Positions 478 through 17,532 of a stretch of DNA of 36,895 bases are shown in pieces. Location of the stretch: positions 1 to 36,895 of the IMG/VR virus record IMGVR_UViG_3300045918_000334; one strand, 5' to 3'. The position numbers and the translations under genes are program-made. The notes under the pieces are model-generated. The model searched no databases, was not told the origin of the DNA, and worked only from the letters and a program-made list of their open reading frames with translations. This DNA comes from a virus. Within the stretch, counting starts at the first letter, position 1; each line of letters opens with the position of its first letter.

Positions 478-735
478 TCAGACCATCCAAAATACACCGT
501 CAACGTCTATTTTGTACCGGCCCCACCGACTGCCGGGATGAAATAGCATCACGTGCGTTTTGCCGCTTATCAGATTATCCACGGTTATTCTGAAACAATC
601 CTCCGGCAGTTCGGGCGGGTACGCTTTTGGCGGCAAATTAGCGTGATACGCATCCCACCGAGCATTTGCCGCACGACTCGCCTTGTCGCTACGTTTTTGT
701 TTTTCTGTTTCAGATCGGTACTTTTGCCAATTCAT
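478..735 (-). CDS. Small hypothetical protein (85 aa)
   Basis: Starts at MNWQKY (ATG at 735), with an AAGGA ribosome-binding site 7 nt upstream. Longer in-frame starts lie inside the upstream gene and have no RBS. The N-terminal half is strongly charged (Lys/Arg/Glu) and contains SDKASRAANARWDAYHAN, likely helical. The C-terminal half is more beta-like with aromatic residues and ends in GVFWMV. The gene follows the DpdA-like gene by about 40 bp. That gap holds only the left half of an attC-like element, so this gene may be the remnant of a cassette or the resident gene next to the array. No family is recognised. Confidence 0.6.
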   Translation of the reverse strand: MNWQKYRSETEKQKRSDKASRAANARWDAYHANLPPKAYPPELPEDCFRITVDNLISGKTHVMLFHPGSRWGRYKIDVDGVFWMV

Positions 736-772
736 GCATAGTTCCTTCCTTGCATAATATTGATAATGCCTT

Positions 773-779
773 GTTATAA
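773..779 (-). other. Half attC-like site (inverse core TTATAAC) after the DpdA-like gene
   Basis: Leftward, TTATAAC exactly complements the right core GTTATAA of the attC at 1527-1586, as expected for the second end of the DpdA-like cassette. It is followed by AAGGCATTATC, as in many attC sites, but no GTT-type right core is found before the next start codon. The distal half of the site therefore seems lost or degenerate, and the array appears to have been truncated here. Confidence 0.65.
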
Positions 780-1502
780 ATCTTGCTGAGTGTGCGGCGT
801 TTCCCAAACCGGAGCGGAGTTATGCCGCTCGATCCGCCACGCCAATACTTCTGATTTCTGACTCGATGATATGTCCTTGTAACATCCCTTCCAGCGTTCG
901 GTATCACCGTTATTTCTGCCGCAGTTGCAGGAATCAGCACTTCCCAACGGCAGATGCTTAAACACGTCTGGGTTCAGCATTCGGAGTCCGTGAACCTTGC
1001 AACGTGGGCGGCCTTGATCATCGCACACAACCGACATTACTTCCGCCATTCTCGCCCACCATGATTTTGTTCCCGGCGTGGGCCATTCACCAGAGCTGCC
1101 GATTGCAATTCGAGGGTAATTGCAGACGAGTCTCTCCAGATGCTCCATTGATTCGTGCATGTGGTAGACTGGCACTCCGAAAGGTGCTTTGCGGCCATAT
1201 TGGAACATCAGCCGCCAGTTGTCATCCTCGGTTCCGTCGATAATATCCGGGATCAAATGCCAGTCATAGCCGGGGTGGGCAACCCACTCATTCACCCACC
1301 GATAAAATTCGTCCCAGTCAGGCGTTTTGCCCCCCTGCCAGAAGGTAAACGCGCCGTTGTCCAAAACAAAAGATGCGCATGTTTTGGCTACAATAGCCAT
1401 GTCTTGTTGATTCGCAAACGAGACGAGCGCATGTTTTCCCGACAAAAACCGGGCAATCTCAACGCCATTCCCGCCTATTGGTGTTCCATGATATGCAATC
1501 AA
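774..1502 (-). CDS. DpdA-like 7-deazaguanine DNA transglycosylase family protein (gene cassette)
   Basis: A 242-aa protein of the phage DpdA-like family, a TGT-fold relative of queuine tRNA-ribosyltransferase. Characterised DpdA enzymes exchange guanine in DNA for preQ0-type bases, which protects DNA from restriction. Recognisable blocks from the N-terminus: IAYHGTPI; SFVLDNGAF (Asp48 candidate active-site residue); LIPDIIDGTEDDN near 84-96; VPVYHMHES; IAIGSSGEW; WWARM; GRPRCKVHGLRMLNPDVF; and LPLGSADS followed by RNNG. The length is typical of the short phage members. There is no ATG start. TTG at 1502 has GAGG about 8 nt upstream and gives the family-like N-terminus MIAYHGTP; TTG at 1508 is the alternative. 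The stop codon lies inside the half attC core at 773-779. No preQ0 synthesis genes (folE, queD, queE, queC) are in the window, so substrate would come from the host or elsewhere in the genome. Family membership is judged from remembered motifs. Confidence 0.82.
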   Translation of the reverse strand: MIAYHGTPIGGNGVEIARFLSGKHALVSFANQQDMAIVAKTCASFVLDNGAFTFWQGGKTPDWDEFYRWVNEWVAHPGYDWHLIPDIIDGTEDDNWRLMFQYGRKAPFGVPVYHMHESMEHLERLVCNYPRIAIGSSGEWPTPGTKSWWARMAEVMSVVCDDQGRPRCKVHGLRMLNPDVFKHLPLGSADSCNCGRNNGDTERWKGCYKDISSSQKSEVLAWRIERHNSAPVWETPHTQQDL

Positions 1503-1526
1503 GATCAAACCCTCACTTCAACCGAT

Positions 1527-1586
1527 TTATAACCAGTCGCGGCACACGGTCTGCGCTGCGCTTGCCGGTGCGCTTAGTCGTTATCT
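1527..1586 (-). repeat. attC-like recombination site B
   Basis: Read leftward: R'' AGATAAC, spacer GACTAA, L'' GCGCACCGG, a 15-nt terminal loop, L' CCGTGTGCCGC, spacer GACTG, R' GTTATAA. L'' and L' form a 9-bp stem with two bulged bases (T and C) on the L' side. Unpaired extrahelical bases of this kind set orientation in known attC sites. R'' is complementary to the right core of site C, and R' to the half site at 773-779. The site begins at the stop codon of the 97-aa gene and ends just before the DpdA-like gene. Its GACTAAGC start resembles the GACAAGC start of site A. Confidence 0.85.
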
Positions 1587-1874
1587 GCTGGCCAGTTTTT
1601 CGTAAATAGGTTCAGCAATCGTCAACGCGTCTTCATTGTTGCGGAGAATTTCGAGATAGGCATCATGGTCAATTCCCGCCTTTTCTCTCGCTGTCCGGCA
1701 AAATATCGCATGAGAGCTGCCAACCATTTCGTCCCATTCCTGACCGGCAGGCCAATCGTTCTCACTTTCTCGGCTCCGATTTGATTCATCCAGACACATT
1801 ACAGCGAGCGCCATTTGTGACCGATAAAGCATTTCCCAGAGTTGTTTTTCAAGGTCTGTTGTGAATTTATGCAT
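1581..1874 (-). CDS. Hypothetical protein of a gene cassette (97 aa)
   Basis: Leftward gene with ATG at 1874 and GGAAGGAA ribosome-binding site about 4-8 nt upstream (5'-GGTGGAAGGAACATC-ATG). The protein is mixed alpha, acidic, and begins MHKFTTDLEKQLWEML. It has two central Cys residues and a WPAGQEWDEM segment. No membrane segment or known motif is visible, and the family is not recognised. The single-gene unit is flanked by attC-like sites at 1896-1964 and 1527-1586, and its TAA stop is part of the AGATAAC core of the latter. There is almost no room for a promoter of its own, so expression would depend on readthrough from the leftward promoter at 2614-2642. Confidence 0.72.
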   Translation of the reverse strand: MHKFTTDLEKQLWEMLYRSQMALAVMCLDESNRSRESENDWPAGQEWDEMVGSSHAIFCRTAREKAGIDHDAYLEILRNNEDALTIAEPIYEKLASR

Positions 1875-1895
1875 GATGTTCCTTCCACCGCTGGC

Positions 1896-1964
1896 AGATA
1901 ACCAGCGGCTCGAATCAGCTCGGGCAAAAAACCCGCCAGACTGTTCAGCCTTGTGACGTTAGAT
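1896..1964 (-). repeat. attC-like recombination site C
   Basis: Read leftward: R'' ATCTAAC, spacer GTCACAA, L'' GGCTGAACAG, loop region with its own CGGG/CCCG hairpin over a T6 run, L' CTGATTCGAGCC, spacer GCTG, R' GTTATCT. L'' pairs with L' over 10 bp when the A and the G of L' are bulged. R'' complements the right core of site D, and R' complements the left core of site B. An extra 7-bp hairpin (1888-1894 with 1902-1908) overlaps the right core. The T6 run in the terminal loop could also weaken readthrough between cassettes. Confidence 0.85.
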
Positions 1965-2191
1965 TACTCTGCCAATTTCTTGATATTTGCGATAATGCAC
2001 AACTTGGTTGCGCTTGCATCTCCAAGTTGTGCATAGTAACTATTGCTGACTTCCACGGTAGTGTCGTCTGCAACTTCCACGGCGGATTCGATGGCCGCTT
2101 TCCACGCCGCTCTGCACCATGAAGTAACCGGCTCCGCAATAAAGGGATTGATTTTGACTCCCGCTGTTTCTAGCCACTGTTCAAATGTCAT
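1964..2191 (-). CDS. Small hypothetical phage-like protein of a gene cassette (75 aa)
   Basis: ATG at 2191 with an AGGGGGC ribosome-binding site. The protein begins MTFEQWLETAG and contains PVTSWCRAAWKAAIES, a layout (EQWL...W-x-AAW-x-AA) common in small uncharacterised phage proteins. It is probably all-alpha in the first 45 residues, with one Cys in that segment and a second near the C-terminus, and no membrane segment. Its TAA stop overlaps the last base of the ATCTAAC core of site C. It has an unusually long 5' region for a cassette (about 95 bp after site D), holding an inverted repeat of CTGTTCCCG that could regulate it. No function is assigned. Confidence 0.7.
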   Translation of the reverse strand: MTFEQWLETAGVKINPFIAEPVTSWCRAAWKAAIESAVEVADDTTVEVSNSYYAQLGDASATKLCIIANIKKLAE

Positions 2192-2208
2192 GATTGCCCC
2201 CTTTTCCG

Positions 2209-2277
2209 CTGTTCCCGAACGGGAATATTTTGTCTTTTTTCGCCGTTTTTTGGCTGGTTATTACCGAGCGGGAACAG
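2209..2277. repeat. Inverted repeat CTGTTCCCG / CGGGAACAG upstream of a cassette gene
   Basis: Arms at 2209-2217 and 2269-2277 are exact inverted copies 51 bp apart. The left arm is also part of a compact palindrome TTCCCG-AA-CGGGAA (2212-2225). Together they give three half-sites of the same sequence in front of the 75-aa gene, which suggests an operator for a dimeric regulator. The regulator is unknown. Confidence 0.45.
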
Positions 2278-2286
2278 TCTTTCGTA

Positions 2287-2338
2287 ATCTAACCAAGTGT
2301 CGGAGCCGAGAATCCGGCTCAACACTCAGCCGTTATTT
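2287..2338 (-). repeat. attC-like recombination site D
   Basis: Read leftward: R'' AAATAAC, spacer GGCTG, L'' AGTGTTGAGCCG, 6-nt loop GATTCT, L' CGGCTCCGACACT, short spacer, R' GTTAGAT. The stem is GAGCCG/CGGCTC plus AGTGT/ACACT, interrupted by an asymmetric T versus CG internal loop. R' GTTAGAT fits the GTTRRRY consensus exactly, and its complement is R'' of site C. R'' complements the right core of site A. This is the shortest of the four sites, close to the known lower size limit for attC. Confidence 0.85.
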
Positions 2339-2533
2339 ACTCACCATTACAATCAGCCCTTTTTCTGTCTCTTGCGCCGAAAGGATGTTCAACACAGTAC
2401 CGTGTGCCGCTTCATCTCGCAAAATTACGGCTGATATTGTCAGCTTCGCTTTTCGGAGCCTTTCACAGTCGCGGTTTGCGGAAATCAGTTTGTCTTCCAA
2501 CGTGCGGATTATTTCATCTTTTTCACATGCCAT
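2333..2533 (-). CDS. Small coiled-coil protein of a gene cassette (66 aa)
   Basis: ATG at 2533 preceded by an ideal GGAGGTGATC ribosome-binding site. The first 35 residues (MACEKDEIIRTLEDKLISANRDCERLRKA) show heptad-like Leu/Ile spacing and alternating charges, which suggests a short coiled coil. The tail is more hydrophobic and ends LIVMVSK. The gene is the first cassette after the leftward promoter and its TAA stop is inside the AAATAAC core of site D. The family is not recognised; small coiled-coil phage proteins often act as regulators or inhibitors, but that is not shown here. Confidence 0.72.
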   Translation of the reverse strand: MACEKDEIIRTLEDKLISANRDCERLRKAKLTISAVILRDEAAHGTVLNILSAQETEKGLIVMVSK

Positions 2534-2549
2534 CTTCGATCACCTCCGT

Positions 2550-2608
2550 AAATAACCAGCGCATAGACACCGATTCCCGTTGGTCACGGGTCATGCTTGT
2601 CGTTATGG
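2550..2608 (-). repeat. attC-like recombination site A (promoter-proximal)
   Basis: Read leftward: R'' CCATAAC, spacer GACAA, L'' GCATGACC, terminal region with a CCCGT/ACGGG hairpin, L' GGTGTCTATGC, spacer GCTG, R' GTTATTT. L'' pairs with L' over 8 bp with GT and T bulged. R' complements the left core of site D. R'' has no GTTATGG partner upstream, so the cassette that once preceded it is gone; the leftward promoter now stands there. The spacer GCTG and the ATAACGAC start are shared with sites C and B respectively. Confidence 0.8.
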
Positions 2609-2613
2609 CTAAA

Positions 2614-2642
2614 CATTTACCTGATATTATTTTACGTGTCAA
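2614..2642 (-). promoter_or_regulatory. Leftward promoter in front of the cassette array
   Basis: On the minus strand TTGACA (2642-2637), 17-nt spacer, TAAATG (2619-2614). The -35 box lies in the left arm of the 22-bp inverted repeat. The array starts 6 bp beyond the -10 box, so this promoter is placed like the Pc promoter of an integron. Confidence 0.6.
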
Positions 2643-2694: not shown

Positions 2695-5403
2695 ATGAAA
2701 TTGTATCCACACCAGATAACTCTCTCCAATGACATCGACACCGCCTGGCTACTGGGCGCTACCAATATTATGCCCACTATGGACTGCGGTAGTGGCAAGT
2801 GCCTCGGCGCGGGCACTCCGGTGATGATGTATGACGGCTCTGTACGCAAGGTTGAGGACATAAAGCCGATGGATCTCCTCATGGGGCCAGACAGCAGACC
2901 CAGGCGCGTAAAGTCCGTGTGTTCCGGTATTGAGCAGCTATACCGGGTAGTTCCTCTAAAGGGCGCGCCGTATGTGGTCAACGAAAGCCATATCCTCAGT
3001 TTTAAAATGTGGGGGATGCCTCATAAACTTACCGGGCCAGATGGAAAAATGTATGGACCTGGTGATGTCGCCAATATCACGGTGAAACAGTACTTATCCG
3101 CATCTTCTACATTTCGGGTTTCAGCTAAGGCTTGGCGTACCGGCGTGGACTTCCCACATAATAAAAATAAATCCCTGATTACTCCATATATACTGGGTGC
3201 TTGGTTGGGAGATGGGAGTTCCGCTGGCCCAAAGTTGCATAACACCGATGATGCCGTGCAAGACGCATGGAGGAAGTTTGCGGAGTCTATAGGCTGCCAT
3301 GTGAATCTAGTTAAGACGCGTAACAGAATTGACACCCATTCTTTGACGAATGGCCGGAACACCACTAAAAACCCCCTCACTACGGAGTTAAGGCGGCTAA
3401 AACTGATAAATAACAAGCATGTCCCACCCCAATTCAAGACGGGGAGTCGTCAAGATAGATTGGAACTCCTGGCGGGGGTAATCGATACAGACGGGGCACT
3501 ATCTGGGGGGGGCTACGACGTAATCTCAAAAATAAAAACTTTAGCCGACGACGTGGCTTTTGTGGCTCGTTCTCTAGGACTCGCTGCATATGTAACTGAG
3601 TGCCTAAAAGAATGTGTAAATAATGGTGCTGTGGGTATCTATTACCGAATCAGTATCAGTGGTGATTGCAGCACCATACCGGTAAAAATTCCGTATAAGA
3701 AAGCCCCCGGAAGAAAACAGATAAAATCTGTTCTTGTTACTAAGGTTAGCCTGGAAAAAATAGGAGTAGGAAAGTACTACGGGTTTGAGCTATTAGGCAC
3801 CGATAGGTTATTTTTGTTAGGGGATTTTACCGTCACCCATAACACTGCCACATGCTGTTATAAGCTGTCGGAATGTACCGAGTCCTGTGTTGCGATAGCC
3901 CACCGGCAGGAGCTTGTCAGCCAGTGGTCGCTCACACTGGCAAGGTATGGCATTACCCACCGTATCATTGGCCCGATAGCAGTAATTAAATGGATCATCC
4001 AGCTCCAGACCCAGGAGTTCGGAAGAGATTTTTACGACCCCAACTCCCGCCGTGCTGTTGCTGGCGTGGATACCATTATATCGTGGAGCAAACCTGAGTC
4101 TCGTCATTATGACAGCATTACCCGATGGGGCAAACAGGTTAAACTGTGGGTAGTGGATGAGGGGCATCATCTGCTCAGAGATAATAAGTGGGGCAAAGCG
4201 GTGGAGTTATTCCCTAATGCACGGGGTCTCGCACCGACCGCAACAGCAGAGCGAGCGGACGGTAAAGGTCTGGGGCGACACCACGATGGGCTGATCGACG
4301 TAATGGTGGAGGGTCCACGTGGTAGATGGTTAATTGATAACGGGTACTTGACTGACTACCGTGTGTTCTGCCCACCATCGGACTTGAGACTTGATAACGT
4401 GGCGCACGGTGTAGACGGGGACTATATCCGCAAACAGCTCGCCACCGCTACACGGTCCTCCAGTATTATGGGTGATGTGGTCACGCACTACCAGCGGCTC
4501 GCGTCTGGGCGTCTGGGCGTTACGTTTGCTCCGGACGTTGAGACCGCAACCGAGCTGGCGGCGGGTTTTAACCGAGCGGGCGTTCCCGCTGAGGTAGTGA
4601 GTGCAAAAACACCTGACCGCCAGCGCGTCGAGGTAATGCGGCAATTTGCATCTGGTAAAATACTTCAGGTCGTCAACGTGGACCTCTTTGGAGAGGGATT
4701 CGACCTCCCTGCCATTGAGGTGGTCAGCATGGCCCGCGCTACAGATAGTTATGGCTTGTACCACCAACAATTCATGCGTGCGCTACGGCGCAAGGAGGGC
4801 AAAGATCGTGCCATCATTATTGATCACGTTGGGAATGTTATACGTCATGGTTTGCCTGATAGTCCTCGTGTGTATGGTCTGGATCGACGAGAGAAGCGAG
4901 CATCGTCTAAGGCAGAGGGTGTCATCCCGTTGCGCGTATGTCTCAACCCGGTCTGTATGTCCCCCTATGAAGCGGTGTACCCATCTTGTCCGTTCTGTGG
5001 ATGGATACCGGTGCCGCAATCACGTAGCTCCGTGGAGATGGTGGACGGTGATTTACATGAACTGGACGCCGCCACGCTTGCCACCATGCGTGGTGAAGTG
5101 GCACGAGTAGACCGCCCTTCCGAGGCCGTACGCGACGCCATGCTGCACGCAGGCGCCCCGACCGTCGCAGCATACGGCGCGGCGAAGAACCACCGAGCGC
5201 GGCAGGAGGCGCAGGAGACTCTGCGTGAGGCAATATCCTGGTGGGGCGGAGCGAGACGTGCAGCAGGTGACATTGACGCGGTGAGTTACCGTAGATTTTA
5301 TCATTTATTCGGTGTGGACGTACTGTCGGCGCAGGCGCTTGGTCGGCCTGAAGCGGAAGTACTGACGGAGCGAATCAATAAAAATATAGGGAGAGTGGTA
5401 TGA
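2695..5403 (+). CDS. Superfamily 2 DNA helicase, interrupted by an intein in Walker A
   Basis: 902-aa precursor; removing the intein (residues 36-383) leaves 554 aa, normal for phage SF2 (Rad25/UvsW-like) helicases. Visible motifs: Walker A CGSGK|T split by the intein between Lys35 and the following Thr; DEGH box at 488-491 (motif II); APTATAER (motif III); VDLFGEGFDLP (motif V); and QFMRALRRKEGK (motif VI, arginine fingers). A C-terminal Cys cluster (C-x4-C ... C-x2-C, in CLNPVC and CPFCG) is a likely zinc ribbon. It would unwind or remodel DNA in phage replication or recombination. The start is the ATG at 2695, at a probable leaderless transcript. The stop overlaps the next start (ATGA). 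Confidence 0.9.
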   Translation: MKLYPHQITLSNDIDTAWLLGATNIMPTMDCGSGKCLGAGTPVMMYDGSVRKVEDIKPMDLLMGPDSRPRRVKSVCSGIEQLYRVVPLKGAPYVVNESHILSFKMWGMPHKLTGPDGKMYGPGDVANITVKQYLSASSTFRVSAKAWRTGVDFPHNKNKSLITPYILGAWLGDGSSAGPKLHNTDDAVQDAWRKFAESIGCHVNLVKTRNRIDTHSLTNGRNTTKNPLTTELRRLKLINNKHVPPQFKTGSRQDRLELLAGVIDTDGALSGGGYDVISKIKTLADDVAFVARSLGLAAYVTECLKECVNNGAVGIYYRISISGDCSTIPVKIPYKKAPGRKQIKSVLVTKVSLEKIGVGKYYGFELLGTDRLFLLGDFTVTHNTATCCYKLSECTESCVAIAHRQELVSQWSLTLARYGITHRIIGPIAVIKWIIQLQTQEFGRDFYDPNSRRAVAGVDTIISWSKPESRHYDSITRWGKQVKLWVVDEGHHLLRDNKWGKAVELFPNARGLAPTATAERADGKGLGRHHDGLIDVMVEGPRGRWLIDNGYLTDYRVFCPPSDLRLDNVAHGVDGDYIRKQLATATRSSSIMGDVVTHYQRLASGRLGVTFAPDVETATELAAGFNRAGVPAEVVSAKTPDRQRVEVMRQFASGKILQVVNVDLFGEGFDLPAIEVVSMARATDSYGLYHQQFMRALRRKEGKDRAIIIDHVGNVIRHGLPDSPRVYGLDRREKRASSKAEGVIPLRVCLNPVCMSPYEAVYPSCPFCGWIPVPQSRSSVEMVDGDLHELDAATLATMRGEVARVDRPSEAVRDAMLHAGAPTVAAYGAAKNHRARQEAQETLREAISWWGGARRAAGDIDAVSYRRFYHLFGVDVLSAQALGRPEAEVLTERINKNIGRVV
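2800..3843 (+). mobile_element. Intein with LAGLIDADG homing endonuclease, in helicase P-loop
   Basis: 348 residues from Cys (codon at 2800) to the His-Asn pair ending at 3843, followed by Thr+1. Splicing blocks: N-terminal CLGAGTPVMMYDG (block A), NESHIL (block B with its His), and C-terminal YYGFELLGTDRLFLLGDF then VTHN|T (blocks F and G). Two LAGLIDADG-type helices, YILGAWLGDG and LLAGVIDTDG, each with an acidic residue, indicate a homing endonuclease that could still be active. It restores GSGKT exactly when excised. It is clearly related to the intein in terL (15214-16230). Confidence 0.93.
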
Positions 5404-6137: not shown

Positions 6138-6442
6138 GACTCAAACCAGAGGATAGATATAATCACATACTCGATGCAGCCATACGAGTGGCGGAGCGGA
6201 GCGGATACCGTACGCTGACCAGGCAGGATGTGGCAGAGGAGGCTGGTGTGAGTCCGGGCCTCGTATCACACTACTATTTGTACGTGGAGCTGTTACGCAT
6301 GGAGGTGCTTGCCAAAGGTGTGGAGCGTGGCGTGCTGCCTATTGTGGCGGAAGGTCTGGTGGCGGGTGAGCTTGTAGCTCGTCGGGCGCCAGAGGAATTG
6401 AGGCAACGCGCGGCGGTCTCGCTGATGGGCGGTGGGGTGTGA
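6134..6442 (+). CDS. TetR-type HTH regulator, short phage form
   Basis: 102 aa. The N-terminal 60 residues match a TetR DNA-binding domain: ILDAAIRVAERSGYRTLTRQDVAEEAGVSPGLVSHYY, with the recognition helix at SPGLVSHYY. The remaining 40 residues are too short for the usual ligand-binding dimerisation domain, so it is either DNA-binding only or dimerises differently. Translationally coupled on both sides (ATGA with the nuclease, GTGTGA with the primase). It may regulate the early operons, and the inverted repeats at 2623-2677, 13053-13066 and 13630-13669 are candidate targets (inference). Confidence 0.82.
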   Translation: MRLKPEDRYNHILDAAIRVAERSGYRTLTRQDVAEEAGVSPGLVSHYYLYVELLRMEVLAKGVERGVLPIVAEGLVAGELVARRAPEELRQRAAVSLMGGGV

Positions 6443-8748
6443 CGGGGGCGCAGTACATAATTTACAACTCCGATAAAAAGCCCCGCTCGCCATACACCGG
6501 ACAGGTGTGTGATCCGCACGACCAGGCCAACCGATCCGACCGTACCACCGCCGAGACTGCTGTAATGCTCGGTATGGGCGAGGGTATCGGGTATGTATTC
6601 TCCGATAATGACGGGCTATTTTTTCTCGATATTGACCACGCACTGCACGACGGACAGTGGTCCGCCGTAGCGATTGAACTCTGCACCGCTCTGTCCGGCT
6701 GTTATGTTGAGATAAGCCGAAGCGGCACTGGTCTCCACATCATTGGTACAGGTACACTCCCCTCCGGCCATCGTACCCGCTGTCAGGAGCACGGTCTGGA
6801 GTTATACACGTCCGGGAGATACTGCGCGTTGACGGGCAAGCAGGCGTCCGGCTCGTGGCAGCATGCGCCACAGGGCGCGCTTGACTCTATCCTGCAGCGT
6901 TACTTCCCGGCCACCGTGGGAGCGGTAGATGCCGAGTGGACAGACGGTCCGGCGCCGGAGTGGTCCGGCCCGACCGACGACCTGGATCTCATTGCAAAGA
7001 TGCTCGCTGCCAAGACCAGTGCTGCCGCTGCGTTCGGCGGGCGCGCCACTTTGCCAGAGTTATGGGCGGGTGACGCCAGCGCGTATCATGATGACGCCAG
7101 CGCGGCGGATGCGGCATTGTGCCAACATCTCGCGTTCTGGACCGGGCGTGACTGCGAGCGGATGGACCGGCTCATGCGTATGAGTGGCTTGATGCGTGAT
7201 AAGTGGGACCGCGACGACTACCGCGAGCGCACCATTCTCCGTGCCGTTGGTCTATGCCAGCAGGTATACAACTCCTCCCCGCGCCAAGTGGTGATAGAGC
7301 CACCCCCGCCAGATGCGGAGCCTGACCGCTGGCGCTCCGGGAGTCAGATACTCACACCTACGATGCAGGTAGAGTATTTTAAAGGCTGCGTGTACGTGAC
7401 TGATCAGCATAAAATACTCGTACCGGATGGGCGGATGCTCAAACCTGATCAGTTCCGTGCCGTGTATGGCGGTTATCAATTTGCACTCGACTCCAGCGGC
7501 AAGACCACCAAGTCTGCGTGGGAAGCGTTTACCGAGTCCCAGACGTATAGCTGGCCCAAAGTCCACACCACCTGCTTCAGACCGGAAGCGCCGGCGGGGG
7601 GAATACTTAGCGAGGAGGGGTGGGATGTGGTCAACTCGTACGTTCCGATTGATACCCCGCGCAAAGTGGGTGATGTGTCGCCATTTACAGGGCTATTGCT
7701 CAAATTGCTACCAGACGACCGGGACCGGGAGATCCTGACCAGCTACCTCGCCGCGTTGGTGCAGTATCCCGGCAAGAAATTCCAATGGTGGCCGGTATTA
7801 CAGGGCACAGAGGGCAACGGTAAGTCGGCTATTATCCGTGCTATAACAGCTGCGGTTGGTAACAGGTATACACATATACCAAACGTGGATGACATGGCTC
7901 GTAACGGTTTTAAATTTAACGCTTGGGTGAGTGGTAAACTGTTTATTGGCATCGAAGAAATTTATGTACCGGACCGGCGTGATTTTCTGGAAGCGTTCAA
8001 AACCACGGTAACAAACGAGCGCGTGCAGATCGAGGGTAAGGGTGTCAATCAAATTATGGGCGATAACCGGGCCAACGGTATACTCTGTACCAACCACAAA
8101 GACGGCGTACCCACCACCGTTGACACGCGACGGTATGCCATACTATTTACGGCGCAACAGAGCAAAGCTGACAAAGAGCGGGATGGCATGGGCGGTATGT
8201 ATTTCCCCGACCTGTACGATTGGTTTAGAGGTGAGGGGGACTACGCCAGCTGCGGTCTGGGGCACGGGTACGCCATTGTAAACGACTATTTGCGGACGTA
8301 CGCCATAGCAGAGGCACACAACCCCGCGCGAAGCTGTCAGGAGGCACCACGGACGAGTAGCACGGCGGAAGCTCTCCAGCTCTCTCTCGGTAGCGTGGAG
8401 CAAGAGGTTATGGAAGCAATCGAGACCGGCGCGCCTGGATTCGCGGGCGGTTGGGTGTCGTCGCTGGCACTGGATAAACTCCTAGAGGGTAAGCGGATGG
8501 ACGCAAGGCTACCGCGTAATAAGCGTCGCGGTCTCCTGGAGGGCCTAGGGTACATGCTGCACCCGTCGTTACCCGATGGCCGCGTCAATAACCCCGTGGC
8601 GATGGATGGCGGCAAACCCAGGCTATTTATAAAGCGTCACCATATACACTGTAACCTGCAAACGTGCGGTGAGATTGTAAGGCATTATACGGAGTGCCAG
8701 CAGGGGGGGGGTGGTTTGTCGGGAGTGTTTAAAAGCGCCACTGGTTGA
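6439..8748 (+). CDS. Primase-polymerase fused to SF3 helicase
   Basis: 769 aa, GTG start overlapping the preceding stop. N-terminal PrimPol (AEP) domain: FFLDIDHAL with Asp64/Asp66, then SRSGTGLHIIG with His100, and LELYTSGRYCALTG, the three active-site blocks of NrS-1-like primase-polymerases. The central ~120-330 part is a linker/DUF3987-like region. The C-terminal SF3/D5-type helicase has Walker A GTEGNGKS (456-463), FIGIEE (Walker B), and an ILCTNHKDG sensor-1 Asn. The protein primes and unwinds DNA and is probably the main replisome component; no separate replicative DNA polymerase is in the window. A run of nine G near the 3' end (8703-8711) is a potential slippage site but is in frame as read. 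Confidence 0.9.
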   Translation: MTGAQYIIYNSDKKPRSPYTGQVCDPHDQANRSDRTTAETAVMLGMGEGIGYVFSDNDGLFFLDIDHALHDGQWSAVAIELCTALSGCYVEISRSGTGLHIIGTGTLPSGHRTRCQEHGLELYTSGRYCALTGKQASGSWQHAPQGALDSILQRYFPATVGAVDAEWTDGPAPEWSGPTDDLDLIAKMLAAKTSAAAAFGGRATLPELWAGDASAYHDDASAADAALCQHLAFWTGRDCERMDRLMRMSGLMRDKWDRDDYRERTILRAVGLCQQVYNSSPRQVVIEPPPPDAEPDRWRSGSQILTPTMQVEYFKGCVYVTDQHKILVPDGRMLKPDQFRAVYGGYQFALDSSGKTTKSAWEAFTESQTYSWPKVHTTCFRPEAPAGGILSEEGWDVVNSYVPIDTPRKVGDVSPFTGLLLKLLPDDRDREILTSYLAALVQYPGKKFQWWPVLQGTEGNGKSAIIRAITAAVGNRYTHIPNVDDMARNGFKFNAWVSGKLFIGIEEIYVPDRRDFLEAFKTTVTNERVQIEGKGVNQIMGDNRANGILCTNHKDGVPTTVDTRRYAILFTAQQSKADKERDGMGGMYFPDLYDWFRGEGDYASCGLGHGYAIVNDYLRTYAIAEAHNPARSCQEAPRTSSTAEALQLSLGSVEQEVMEAIETGAPGFAGGWVSSLALDKLLEGKRMDARLPRNKRRGLLEGLGYMLHPSLPDGRVNNPVAMDGGKPRLFIKRHHIHCNLQTCGEIVRHYTECQQGGGGLSGVFKSATG

Positions 8749-12090: not shown

Positions 12091-12118
12091 AATATACTCC
12101 TAATATTACGCATGTCAA
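12091..12118 (-). promoter_or_regulatory. Leftward sigma70-type promoter of the small-gene operon
   Basis: On the minus strand TTGACA (12118-12113), 16-nt spacer, TATATT (12096-12091). It drives the block 12045-8768, which ends at the terminator 8735-8757. This is the best-matching promoter in the window. Confidence 0.75.
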
Positions 12119-12128
12119 GTATTATTTT

Positions 12129-12716
12129 TTAGTTGGTATAGTCCGGTGCTTCCGGGTACTTGTCCAAGCGTAACGTAGGCAGTGCGCGAATCGCCCGCAA
12201 GTTGTGTGGCGTGGCCCGGCGGACCGCCACAATCAGCAGCATGTGCGGATGCGCCCGCTTTATCTCTTTGCGCATCTGGATAGCTGCGCAGTTGCTTGTA
12301 CCGACGTATGAGACAATCAAACCGCTGCAGAGATCCGTTACATAGTAGTAGCGTATCTGGCGGGGTGTTGGGGCGTCGGGTTTACGTTGCGGCGTGGTGC
12401 GTGGTGCGTTGCGGCGTGTCATAGCCACGCATTGTAAGCAGATATGCGGCGTCTTCACGTACCGCCACGAGTTGTGGCCCTGTGCGGTGCACGTCGCCCT
12501 GAATATGGGAAGGCCTGCCCGCTTGGCGTAGTCCAGTGAGATATTAGCTTTTCCGTATAGCGCCGTCATGGCTACGATCATTGTACCGCGTCGGCGCGGA
12601 AAACAATCTACACATAGCCCTGATCCAGTCCATCGGTGCCTGTGCTTTGTATCGTGTTTACACGTGCCCGTGTATTGTCGGTCCCCCGCTAATAATGCTG
12701 CTTTTCGTCTGTTCAT
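12129..12716 (-). CDS. Hypothetical double zinc-finger protein (195 aa)
   Basis: ATG at 12716 with GGGGGGA upstream. The N-terminal half has two similar Cys/His modules: CKHDTKHRHRWTGSGLCVDC (residues about 19-38) and CTAQGHNSWRYVKTPHICLQC (about 75-95). Each has the order C-x(n)-H-x(n)-R/W...C-x2-C, probably one zinc each. After a basic PRTTPQRKPDAPTPRQ linker comes a C-terminal domain beginning RYYYVTDLCSGLIVSYVGTSN, which has a faint resemblance to the strand pattern of GIY-YIG nucleases, but no full motif. Nucleic-acid binding is likely and a nuclease is possible. It has its own promoter at 12749-12778. Confidence 0.68.
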   Translation of the reverse strand: MNRRKAALLAGDRQYTGTCKHDTKHRHRWTGSGLCVDCFPRRRGTMIVAMTALYGKANISLDYAKRAGLPIFRATCTAQGHNSWRYVKTPHICLQCVAMTRRNAPRTTPQRKPDAPTPRQIRYYYVTDLCSGLIVSYVGTSNCAAIQMRKEIKRAHPHMLLIVAVRRATPHNLRAIRALPTLRLDKYPEAPDYTN

Positions 12717-13853: not shown

Positions 13854-14429
13854 ATGACCAGACCAGCCAAAGACAGTGTGATTACCGTGGACCCGCTCAG
13901 AACGCTGGCGGAAGTAGATGCCATGCGTAACGCCATCACCAACCACGCAGGCCCCACAACAGTGAGGGACACTGCGTTATTCGCGGTAGGTGTCCGTACC
14001 AACCTTCGCGCCACTGACCTGCTTACGCTCCGTCCGTCAGATATTGACTGGCTCACGGGGCGTCTCACGCTCCGGGAGGGAAAAACGAAGAAGATCCGGC
14101 AGATACCACTCTCCTCCGACACGATAGCCTTGCTCCTGCCCCTGTGTGGTGGTGAGTACTTGTTCGCCAGTGCCGGGACGGGTAAGCCTATGACGGTGGC
14201 GAGTCTTAACCATTTGGTGAAATTGTGGGCGATACGTGCTAACCTGCGCCACGGCAACTATGGGACCCGCACGCTCCGCAAAACATGGGCGACGATACAG
14301 CACTCGGTATTCGGAACTCCGGTGTGGCAGATCAGCCAGCAGCTTAACCACTCCAGCGAGGCCATGACGTATCATTACCTAGGGCTCAACCAGGCCCATG
14401 TGGAGGAGATTTATGCAAGGGATATCTAA
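13854..14429 (+). CDS. Short tyrosine recombinase (catalytic domain only)
   Basis: 191 aa. Box I Arg is in VRTNLRATDLLTLRPSDIDW; the beta-hairpin Lys is in LREGKTKKIRQIP; the box II region reads YGTRTLRKTWAT (Arg kept, the usual preceding His replaced by Thr); LNHSSEAMTYHYLG gives the second His and the nucleophile Tyr (HYLGL). The N-terminal SAM-like core-binding domain of normal integrases is absent. Short recombinases of this kind recur in phage genomes next to packaging genes, where resolution of genome multimers or ends is possible; it is not an integron IntI (no extra helix insertion, half the size). Start ATG at 13854 with TAGGAG. Its end overlaps the Zn-ribbon gene. Confidence 0.85.
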   Translation: MTRPAKDSVITVDPLRTLAEVDAMRNAITNHAGPTTVRDTALFAVGVRTNLRATDLLTLRPSDIDWLTGRLTLREGKTKKIRQIPLSSDTIALLLPLCGGEYLFASAGTGKPMTVASLNHLVKLWAIRANLRHGNYGTRTLRKTWATIQHSVFGTPVWQISQQLNHSSEAMTYHYLGLNQAHVEEIYARDI

Positions 14430-14610: not shown

Positions 14611-14884
14611 ACAATCTCGCTGCACTGAGCAAAAGTTTACCCGCCTGCGGGATATTCAGGAGCGTATCCGCTTTGACGCCCCGTCCATGGCGGCCTGCCT
14701 GGGTATAACACCCAGAGCGTACCGGAATTACTTATACGATGCCCGACAGATCCCCCCGCACATCGCTCGCGCCGCGCTGGAATTGGAGCAGATAAACGTC
14801 ACATTTATGGAGACGTTACCGAGCCGTGTAGACCAGCACATACCCCCTGACGGGTACATAAGTGAGGTGACGCAGTGGCAGTAA
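14603..14884 (+). CDS. HTH protein directly upstream of terL (93 aa); alternative TerS candidate
   Basis: Starts at MSKQSRCTEQKFTR (ATG at 14603), 8 bp overlap with the preceding gene; a longer frame from 14483 would run through it. The middle, RFDAPSMAACLGITPRAYRNYLYDARQIPPHIARAAL, is a Cro/C1-like helix-turn-helix. The stop overlaps the terL GTG start by 10 bp, so the two are translationally coupled. Either a regulator or the true small terminase; the 154-aa gene at 13102 competes for that role. Confidence 0.65.
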   Translation: MSKQSRCTEQKFTRLRDIQERIRFDAPSMAACLGITPRAYRNYLYDARQIPPHIARAALELEQINVTFMETLPSRVDQHIPPDGYISEVTQWQ

Positions 14885-17532
14885 AACCGACCGCCAGGAA
14901 GGGTTACACTCAGGCGCACGTAGACCGTATTGGGTTTTATAAAACGCACCCCTTTGAGTGGTTCAAGGACCTATTTGGAGATAATGTCTATAAGCTCCAG
15001 CAGGCACGTGGCAGTATTACGGCGGATGGCATGTGGCGCGAGACTGGCGCGCCGGCTGACTCATCCGGTCTCACCGGCCAGCAGATCAACGCGCTGCAGG
15101 AGTGGGGTATCCTCATCGGGTGCAAGCTACTTTTAGCTGCCGGCAAAGACCTCACTGAGGCGCAGGCGCGGTGGGCTGATAAAGTGGGGATGTCCATACA
15201 GAGCGCGAACGGCTGTCATGCGTGGGGTACTCCCGTACTCATGCATGACGGGGAGATCCGGAGGGTAGAGGATGTCCGGGTCGGGGACTTAATCATGGGG
15301 GACGACAGCACACCCCGCAGAGTACTATCGCTGGCGCGGGGGCGAGAGCGTATGTACCGAATTCGATACAAAAACGGAGAATTCTACGATGTGAATGAGA
15401 GCCACATCCTGTCGCTCCGCTGTATCTCCAACCACGCCAGAAAGTACGTCAAAGGCCAGCTTTTAGATATTTCTGTCCGGGACTACCTCAAACTAAACAC
15501 CACCGAAAAAACTATGTTCAAAGGCTACAAAGCTCCGGTAGAGTTCCCAGAGAAGACGCTACCCATCCCACCATATATTCTCGGAATGTGGTTAGGAGAT
15601 GGCTGTTTTTCTGCTCCGGAAATGACCAGTATAGACCCAGAAATTATCTCGGAGTGGAACGATTGGGGTATATCCCTTGGCCTGACTATGAAACGACGGT
15701 CATATAAGGCCTGGCGTGTAACTAACGGGCACTGCGGGGGTGCTAAAAACGCCTGGATGGAGCTACTGAAGGAGGGGGGGCTTTTCCGAAACAAGCACAT
15801 CCCGGATGTGTACCTTAAATCGAGCAGGGCGCAGCGTTTGGAACTGTTGGCAGGTCTCATCGACACCGACGGGTCACTCGATAAACGCAAGGGGCGGGTG
15901 TACTCAATCATACAAAAAGATGAAGCTCTGGCCGGGCAGATCCGGTGGCTCGCACGCTCACTTGGTATGCACTCCACGATCAGTAAAAAAGAAAAATCAT
16001 GGACCTACAACGGTACCCGGAACGTAGGAGTGTACCACGAGGTTCACATAGCCAGAAAGGTGGAAGAAATACCGTGCAGAGTAGCACGGAAGAAGGCCGC
16101 CAAGATCCCCAACGGCATGGAACTTAATTTTGGTTTCGATGTAATACCCATGGAAATAGACGATTATTACGGGTTCGAACTGAACGGAAACCACCGATAC
16201 CTGATAGGAGATTTTACCGTTACTCACAACACCGGTAAGGATTTTACCGCCGCTATTGTGACGTGGCATTTCATGTTCTGCTTCAGCTATCCAAAGGTTA
16301 TCGCCACAGCCAATACGGGCAAACAGCTCAACGAGGTTTACTGGTCAGAGCTGGCTAAGGTGCGTGGACTCGCTCGTAAGGCCGATCCGTCTGATCCCAA
16401 TAGTGTGAGCGACCTGCAGGCGAACTTTACGATGCAGGCTGAGATGCTATTTGCCAACCTCCCCAATAAGGAGGAGCGCGGCAAGCGCCATTTTTGCGTG
16501 CCCGTCACGATTAACACCAAGGCGACAGCAGAGCAGCAGGGTGAAGCGCTGGCAGGTCGCCATGAGGACCACATGCTTTTCGTTATTGATGAGGCCAGTG
16601 GCATCCCCGACGCAGTTTTCAAACCAATAGAGAAAACCCTCACCGGTAAACTGAACCTGGTATTTATGATTTTCAACCCGACGCAGAACCTAGGGTTTGC
16701 TATCCGCAGCCAGGTAGAACAGCGCAGCAAGTGGGTCTGCAAACACTGGTCGGGCCTTGACTCCGAGAACGTGTCCCGCGCCTCCATCCGCAATCTGGCT
16801 GTGTACGGCAAGGACTCACCTGACTATCGTATCGGCGTTCTCGGTCTGCCACCACTGGCTGACTCAAACGGTCTGATACCATACCTGTGGATACAGGCGG
16901 CTATCGGAAGAGAGTTCGATAACGACAACGACCCCGTCATGGCGTCTGCTGACGTCGGCGGCGGCGGCGATAAGTCCGTATTCTGCTACAGGCAGGGCGG
17001 GGTGGTACAGGGTTTCAAGACCAATAACTCGAAAAACACCATGGATGTGGCTGACTGGGTGGTAGAGGCATGTGACGACGCAGACGCGGCGGTCTGTTTT
17101 GTGGATATCATCGGTTTGGGCCGTGGCGTCTACGACAGAGCGCGGCAATTACGTCGTATTGTACGTCCTGCCGATGCTCGTAACACTGCCAGCAACGAAG
17201 AAAAGTACTTTAACGCACGCGCTGAGGGATACCACACGCTTCGTAAGCAGTTTGAGCAGGGCACCATAAGCATCCCGGCTCCCGGAGACTCCAGGGACGC
17301 AAACGACCCCATTGTGAGGCTCATTCGTGAGTTGGGGGCCATCAAGAACGAGACCGTGGGTAAAAAGGACAAGATCGGTGACAAAAAAGAGATCCGGAAG
17401 CTGATCGGATTCAGTCCGGACTACGCCGACGCGCTTATGATGACGTTCTGGAAGCCGGATTCGCTATTCCGTAAGGTGGTATCTGGGCAGAAGCACAAGG
17501 CGGTAGACTTCAAGGGGGTATATTTACGATGA
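14875..17532 (+). CDS. terL: Large terminase subunit, interrupted by an intein in Walker A
   Basis: 885-aa precursor; the intein is residues 114-452, leaving a 546-aa TerL. GTG start overlapping the upstream gene. Extein motifs: Walker A SANG|TGKD split by the intein; Walker B VIDEA at 570-574; a nuclease domain with ADVGGGGDKS (Asp693), FVDIIGLG (Asp744) and SPDYADAL (Asp849/852), the three acidic positions of the RuvC-like fold. It powers packaging and cuts the concatemer. The ATPase is dead until the intein is removed, since the P-loop is broken. The next small gene overlaps the stop (ATGA). Confidence 0.95.
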   Translation: MAVKPTARKGYTQAHVDRIGFYKTHPFEWFKDLFGDNVYKLQQARGSITADGMWRETGAPADSSGLTGQQINALQEWGILIGCKLLLAAGKDLTEAQARWADKVGMSIQSANGCHAWGTPVLMHDGEIRRVEDVRVGDLIMGDDSTPRRVLSLARGRERMYRIRYKNGEFYDVNESHILSLRCISNHARKYVKGQLLDISVRDYLKLNTTEKTMFKGYKAPVEFPEKTLPIPPYILGMWLGDGCFSAPEMTSIDPEIISEWNDWGISLGLTMKRRSYKAWRVTNGHCGGAKNAWMELLKEGGLFRNKHIPDVYLKSSRAQRLELLAGLIDTDGSLDKRKGRVYSIIQKDEALAGQIRWLARSLGMHSTISKKEKSWTYNGTRNVGVYHEVHIARKVEEIPCRVARKKAAKIPNGMELNFGFDVIPMEIDDYYGFELNGNHRYLIGDFTVTHNTGKDFTAAIVTWHFMFCFSYPKVIATANTGKQLNEVYWSELAKVRGLARKADPSDPNSVSDLQANFTMQAEMLFANLPNKEERGKRHFCVPVTINTKATAEQQGEALAGRHEDHMLFVIDEASGIPDAVFKPIEKTLTGKLNLVFMIFNPTQNLGFAIRSQVEQRSKWVCKHWSGLDSENVSRASIRNLAVYGKDSPDYRIGVLGLPPLADSNGLIPYLWIQAAIGREFDNDNDPVMASADVGGGGDKSVFCYRQGGVVQGFKTNNSKNTMDVADWVVEACDDADAAVCFVDIIGLGRGVYDRARQLRRIVRPADARNTASNEEKYFNARAEGYHTLRKQFEQGTISIPAPGDSRDANDPIVRLIRELGAIKNETVGKKDKIGDKKEIRKLIGFSPDYADALMMTFWKPDSLFRKVVSGQKHKAVDFKGVYLR
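15214..16230 (+). mobile_element. Intein with LAGLIDADG homing endonuclease, in TerL P-loop
   Basis: 339 residues from Cys (codon at 15214) to His-Asn ending at 16230, then Thr+1. Block A CHAWGTPVLMHDG, block B NESHIL, LAGLIDADG helices YILGMWLGDG and LLAGLIDTDG, block F YYGFELNGNHRYLIGDF, block G VTHN|T. Excision rebuilds ANGTGKD. Shares with the helicase intein PRRV, (V/F)-NESHILS, KHIP/KHVP, RLELLAG-IDTDG and GDFTVTHNT, so the two are recent relatives. All splicing residues are present; the endonuclease looks intact. Confidence 0.93.

Follow-up and report, generated by a model that had tools for sequence, protein, structure and literature searches.

A short region of the window (the whole stretch of viral DNA that was analysed, 36,895 nucleotides in length, corresponding to positions 1 to 36,895 of the IMG/VR virus record IMGVR_UViG_3300045918_000334) quite probably represents a phage integron that lacks an integrase gene (intI), and that is populated by back-to-front cassettes drawn from a pool circulating among phages. 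Integrons are viewed as devices by which bacteria capture genes, and the arrays found in phages as occasional passengers; swappable gene units of this kind spread antibiotic resistance between bacteria. Computational analysis demonstrated the attC architecture of the region, the chaining of its borders, the inverted polarity of its genes and an attI-like site, and further demonstrated that its dpdA cassette is shared with another phage and that counterparts of the region bear either a full-length or a deleted intI. The first-pass annotation had described an integron-type cassette array within a phage genome, comprising four leftward single-gene units and four elements of attC layout; each of those features is present in the window sequence at the place claimed for it, and the reading as a phage-borne array is supported both by covariance-model matches and by phage genes in the same contig. 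All of the sequences compared are metagenome assemblies. The features of the region are as follows (E-values are those of the covariance model R1, described below).

478 to 735, minus strand: g87, which adjoins the attI-like site; a shortened copy of its homologs in phages G012 and G013
736 to 779, plus strand: attI-like recipient site, GCATAGTTCCTTCCTTGCATAATATTGATAATGCCTTG followed across the cassette border by TTATAA
774 to 1580, plus strand (attC polarity): cassette 1, dpdA in antisense and attC E2; end 7-mers complementary
774 to 1508, minus strand: DpdA-like gene of family phrog_887 (annotated as queuine tRNA-ribosyltransferase), with its stop codon at the cassette start
1527 to 1586, minus strand (strand of the R1 match; canonical top strand plus): attC E2, E 2e-10
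1581 to 1958, plus strand: cassette 2, 97-aa gene and attC E3; borders GTTATCT/AGATAAC
1581 to 1874, minus strand: cassette 2 gene, 97 aa, no family match
1896 to 1964, minus strand: attC E3, E 6e-5
1959 to 2332, plus strand: cassette 3, 75-aa gene and attC E4; borders GTTAGAT/ATCTAAC
1964 to 2191, minus strand: cassette 3 gene, 75 aa, no family match
2287 to 2338, minus strand: attC E4, E 1.5e-7
2333 to 2602, plus strand: cassette 4, 66-aa gene and attC E5; borders GTTATTT/AAATAAC
2333 to 2533, minus strand: cassette 4 gene, 66 aa, no family match
2550 to 2608, minus strand: attC E5, at the array end on the promoter side, E 9e-5
2614 to 2642, minus strand: candidate phage promoter TTGACA-N17-TAAATG, recognized by eye, reading into the array

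Along the minus strand, four hairpins (2608-2550, 2338-2287, 1964-1896 and 1586-1527) alternate with four small genes, and all four attCs display NNNTAAC...GTTANNN ends surrounding an imperfect inner stem. The outer 7-mers, which had been described as exactly complementary in four of four pairs, do pair at 7/7 positions across each of the four cassettes (GTTATTT/AAATAAC, GTTAGAT/ATCTAAC, GTTATCT/AGATAAC and GTTATAA/TTATAAC). The inner stems range from -8.7 to -12.5 kcal/mol, values that were reached by 5.4% and 0.3%, respectively, of attC-like pairs in a shuffle control. Hairpins between genes are common, and at a loose threshold an average shuffle yields approximately 32 attC-like pairs, such that the array might be imagined as four chance hairpins (terminators or repeats) lying between small phage genes. 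Chaining of 7-mers without stem scores proved too noisy, and chains were therefore scored on condition that the inner stem reach 8 kcal/mol or more, and compared with 4,000 dinucleotide shuffles: the window contains one chain of four linked sites, whereas two linked sites arose in 26 shuffles and three or more in none.

A covariance model (R1) was then trained on 35 attCs, all taken from phages other than that of the window; chain-linked sites gathered from the window and other contigs together numbered 59. The structure of R1 comprises 12 base pairs, eight of which display compensatory changes, and as positive controls the model recovers the class-1 integron attCs on four plasmids and those of a Geobacter chromosomal integron (L124). 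Applied to the window, R1 identifies exactly the four attCs (E 2e-10 to 9e-5, where part of its training sites are homologous to E2), matches nothing else below E 0.1, and gives a next best value of 0.15; a search of Rfam returned no match. The shuffled chains and the R1 search refute the chance-hairpin explanation, as does the presence of one entire cassette in another phage, and its probability is negligible. A covariance search, of the kind that the first-pass annotation had proposed, recovered all four sites, and neither of the outcomes that the annotation named together as grounds for abandoning the array (the absence of any attC hit, and an invariant locus in all relatives) was observed, since the locus varies among related genomes as described below.

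Whether the array is back to front was judged by setting gene direction against attC polarity. R1 matches the strand opposite to the cassette gene in the Geobacter chromosomal integron and in class-1 integrons, whereas in the window array and in prophage L129 it matches the gene strand. A tally of adjacent open reading frames, which is a crude measure, gave 68 phage attCs on the same strand as the gene, 14 opposite (some of them arising from shadow reading frames) and 6 unclear, as compared to bacterial attCs, of which 8 were opposite, 1 was on the same strand and 2 were unclear; the one bacterial attC on the same strand belongs to the dfrB1 cassette, whose annotation likewise makes it opposite. 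Folding alone led to the same distinction: extra unpaired bases lie in the 3' arm in 49 of the 59 phage-set sites (4 in the 5' arm, 6 equal), but in the 5' arm in seven of eight canonical sites (equal in the other). The folding measure is clear for three of the four window sites and ambiguous for E3. According to these measures of polarity, the window cassettes run on the plus strand and their genes are antisense, the stop codons falling at the cassette starts or close to them. Gene direction is therefore inverted relative to attC polarity in the window and at most phage attCs; this inversion is not universal among phage arrays, since the array of phage TJE1 scores as canonical by R1.

Read in attC polarity, the first cassette begins between G773 and T774, immediately beyond a sequence (736-779) that is attI-like by its position and by a short motif. 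It contains the core TAATGC-CTT-GTT at 764-775, and the form TAATNN-NNN-GTT, read toward the cassettes, is common to most of the borders compared, among which the window copy is the most divergent. A similar sequence lies at this array border in G012 and G013, whose first cassettes differ from that of the window. The partner 7-mer at 773-779 had been taken as the edge of a fifth attC; it is instead adjoined on its left by the attI-like site, and a truncated attC at this array end was dropped as a candidate, because the polarity runs opposite and a similar border is found in G012 and G013. In those two phages, as in the window, the gene at the border is g87 rather than intI (tblastn identity 68-69% to both). 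A search of viral contigs with g87 returned G012 only; the window copy is shorter than its homologs and frame-shifted near its end.

In other phages, that place is occupied by the integrase gene. A full-length intI, whose start codon follows the border, was found in four phages or prophages (phages G020, G008 and G017, and prophage L129), all of which encode IntI proteins above the TIGR02249 cut-off and, as judged from translations, have genes for phage structure or packaging on the contig that carries intI (with a terminase family match for G008 and G020). In two more, intI is deleted: at the G007 border IntI is reduced to 30 residues of its C-terminal end, 73% identical to G008, and the G009 border carries an N-terminal IntI piece fused to the C-terminal end through an internal deletion. 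These truncated or deleted genes are a sign of decay from an integron to an array without intI. In the window contig, which is partial and beyond whose ends an intI may lie, no TIGR02249 score exceeded 13.8 bits, the cut-off being 265, so that the intI of a complete integron, present in the contigs G008, G017, G020:C222 and L129, is not found there.

A search of IMG/VR with an alignment of the four IntI proteins recovered IntI relatives in 142 viral contigs; 80 of these contigs were kept and counted as viral according to IMG/VR. At 78 of the intI loci R1 produced 55 matches at E <=0.02, 52 of which lie upstream of intI and on its strand, and among the segments with clear reading-frame content 20 point with intI and 2 against it. 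In a tree of IntI proteins, the four belong to a single clade of 15 sequences (support 0.999), one of which comes from a Geobacteraceae genome contig. Many other environmental phages carry arrays of this kind, some together with the recombinase, so that phages may run gene swapping of their own. The broader proposition, that environmental phages operate an integron system with attI sites, IntI proteins of a phage clade and back-to-front cassettes from a pool private to phages, appears on balance somewhat favoured, with appreciable doubt.

These observations at the border bear upon a further explanation, according to which a host integrase inserted the cassettes at a chance attG-like site, with their inversion subsequently selected for readout from a phage promoter. 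The insertion of attC cassettes at secondary sites is an established concept, and the array does start just downstream of a promoter-like element. Scattered insertion would not, however, predict a single polarity for all cassettes relative to the border site, the recurrence of the same border in G012 and G013, or the presence of intI or its remnants at this place in other phages, and this explanation is accordingly quite improbable.

The cassettes themselves point to exchange between phages. Positions 773-1584 of the window match positions 1628-2442 of G020:C222, a 58 kb contig in a Geobacter metagenome-assembled genome (MAG), at 83% over the whole dpdA cassette and its attC; the match ends at both cassette borders, the two DpdA proteins are 93% identical, and no other array DNA is common to the two besides this cassette with its E2-type attC. 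Because the dpdA cassette is common to both contigs, sequence exchange is implied. A 24-nt core of E2 has exact matches in 14 viral contigs and in two contigs from bacterial MAGs (one of the latter being the phage contig G020:C222 itself), and E2-type attCs adjoin different genes in different contigs. For E3, E4 and E5 no blastn match was found among the other contigs compared. Other phages also encode DpdA homologs, in L010 as part of a cassette and in, for example, L009 and L012 with no attC adjoining the gene. In the integron of phage G017, a cassette (1620-2270, L048) carries a ThyX-like gene, recognized by eye from its translation.

A rival explanation is that the region is an ordinary CALIN, a piece of bacterial chromosomal integron that was captured by a phage and is now frozen, with no platform or pool specific to phages. 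The window does have what defines a CALIN, namely at least two attCs that possess R and L boxes and fold into a stem, G/TT borders with complementary 7-mers at both cassette ends, and the absence of an integron integrase nearby within the partial contig. That absence of intI, the frequency of chromosomal intI in Geobacteraceae (34 of 76 genomes above the cut-off), and the published attribution of arrays in Vibrio phages to capture from the host (PMC9892861) all speak for it. It does not agree with the canonical gene direction of the chromosomal integron L124 as compared to the inverted window array, with the attI-like border and dpdA cassette held in common with other phages, or with the distribution of E2, which among 76 genomes of the family of G020 is found at 98% in the phage contig G020:C222 only. 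Capture of a bacterial fragment is thus considered unlikely. E2 had also been tried as a Geobacteraceae chromosomal attC and was rejected, its 98% match being confined to the phage contig and the other loci being without a linked three-site chain.

The phage nature of the surrounding sequence, described in the first-pass annotation as a lytic-phage backbone, is upheld by genes for a helicase, an NrS-1-type primase and a terminase in the same contig; its lytic character is unproven, given a partial contig that encodes a XerA-like recombinase. This tyrosine recombinase (191 aa, 13854-14429) lies below the IntI cut-off, and a weak XerA-like match is also found in G001, a relative without an array. 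The primase (6439-8748) combines an NrS-1-polymerase helix-bundle domain with DUF5906, and inteins with Hint and homing-endonuclease domains are found in both the helicase (2695-5403) and the terminase (14875-17532); the helicase of relative L003 is without an intein. A 28-bp stretch of the window (12112-12139) is identical to L003 17314-17341, an inverted near-copy of which lies at L003 18948-18916.

The helicase gene is divergent from the array and has relatives in L003 through L008, which allowed the locus to be compared among related genomes. No array is present at this place in L003 and L004, a different array of three attCs occupies it in L006, and in L005 the array lies on the opposite side of the helicase. 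Similar TTGACA elements occur at this place in L003, L004 and L006, and the element TTGACA-N17-TAAATG at 2642-2614 is, from its sequence, a probable phage promoter reading into the array; a scan for consensus promoters made no call at 2614-2642. An inverted repeat of approximately 55 bp (87%) spans 2623-2677, between the array and the helicase, and is possibly an operator or a two-way promoter.

The reading preferred here, that of an integron without intI supplied from a phage pool, suggests a mode of operation in which IntI would be provided in trans, either by an intI-bearing phage or by an integron of the host, and would join folded single-stranded attCs to the attI-like site at 736-779. 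Accessory genes would in this manner be acquired singly through an integron integrase from the pool of cassettes circulating among phages, and the dpdA cassette, being nearest to attI, would be the latest arrival. The inversion of the genes relative to attC polarity turns them toward attI, and the array would be read leftward from the phage promoter at its far end (about 2642-2614).

Among the four cassette genes only dpdA displays a family match (phrog_887, E 1.8e-63 over residues 4-215), which together with the conserved TGT-like motifs DNGA, HE and ADS places its product with the DpdA/TGT-like transglycosylases. A Pfam search with the protein gave no match, and its structure model (mean pLDDT 56) yielded weak TIM-barrel matches, with no TGT among the matches listed. 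Modification of the DpdA type shields DNA from restriction in other phages (PMC6884629), and by analogy the cassette gene probably acts in DNA modification for escape from host restriction. The window protein resembles the phage DpdA DNA transglycosylases described there in its phrog_887 match and TGT-like motifs, and differs from them in being short (244 aa) and in being borne as an integron cassette.

If these proposals are correct, phage integrons would serve as a store of exchangeable accessory genes, anti-restriction genes among them, and phages without intI, such as that of the window, would be its users in trans. Phage ownership of attI, intI, inverted cassettes and their exchange would amount to a second cassette economy, belonging to phages, and would account for the trade in single DNA-modification genes among small phages. 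It is further predicted that phage cassettes would lie antisense to Pc in bacterial integrons, yet be readable from phage promoters.

The array had been described as unusual for a phage; the array itself stands and its novelty does not, since cassette arrays without an integrase were reported in virulent phages by Qi et al. in 2023 (PMC9892861), where TJE1, P12002L, PH101, V. anguillarum phages and Shewanella M16-3 are named, and IntI1 recombined five of six phage attCs tested. Those arrays resemble that of the window as integrase-less cassettes in phage genomes with methylase-type cargo. When R1 was applied to published phage arrays, the attCs of PH101, P12002L and MW202573 were matched on the gene strand, which suggests that three of them are inverted too and one (TJE1) canonical. 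The consulted portions of that paper (PMC9892861) describe neither inverted polarity, nor an attI common to phages without intI, nor decayed intI, nor a cassette shared by phages; in the open-access literature (with preprints and subscription papers outside its scope) no report was found of inverted polarity, of decaying intI beside a phage attI, or of one cassette in more than one phage. What goes beyond the published phage arrays is the inverted polarity, the attI-like site, phage intI in full-length and deleted form, the recurrence of the dpdA cassette, and the occurrence of one attC type beside different genes in 14 viral contigs.

With class 1 and sedentary chromosomal integrons, the phage systems have in common their attC architecture, G/TT borders, a putative attI beside the start of intI and, in related phages, IntI proteins above the TIGR02249 cut-off. 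They differ in that the genes of class 1 and chromosomal integrons point away from attI, whereas those of the phage arrays point toward it (in the window, genes read toward the attI-like site rather than away from it from a Pc), and in that the window is without intI. A partial parallel is provided by the reverse, or inverted-integrase, integrons of Treponema, in which intI is transcribed toward attI (PMC3607928). The two systems agree in that intI and the cassette genes share one direction of transcription. They part over which element is reversed: phage intI, unlike its Treponema counterpart, is oriented away from attI, as is usual in integrons, and the reversal affects the cassette genes.
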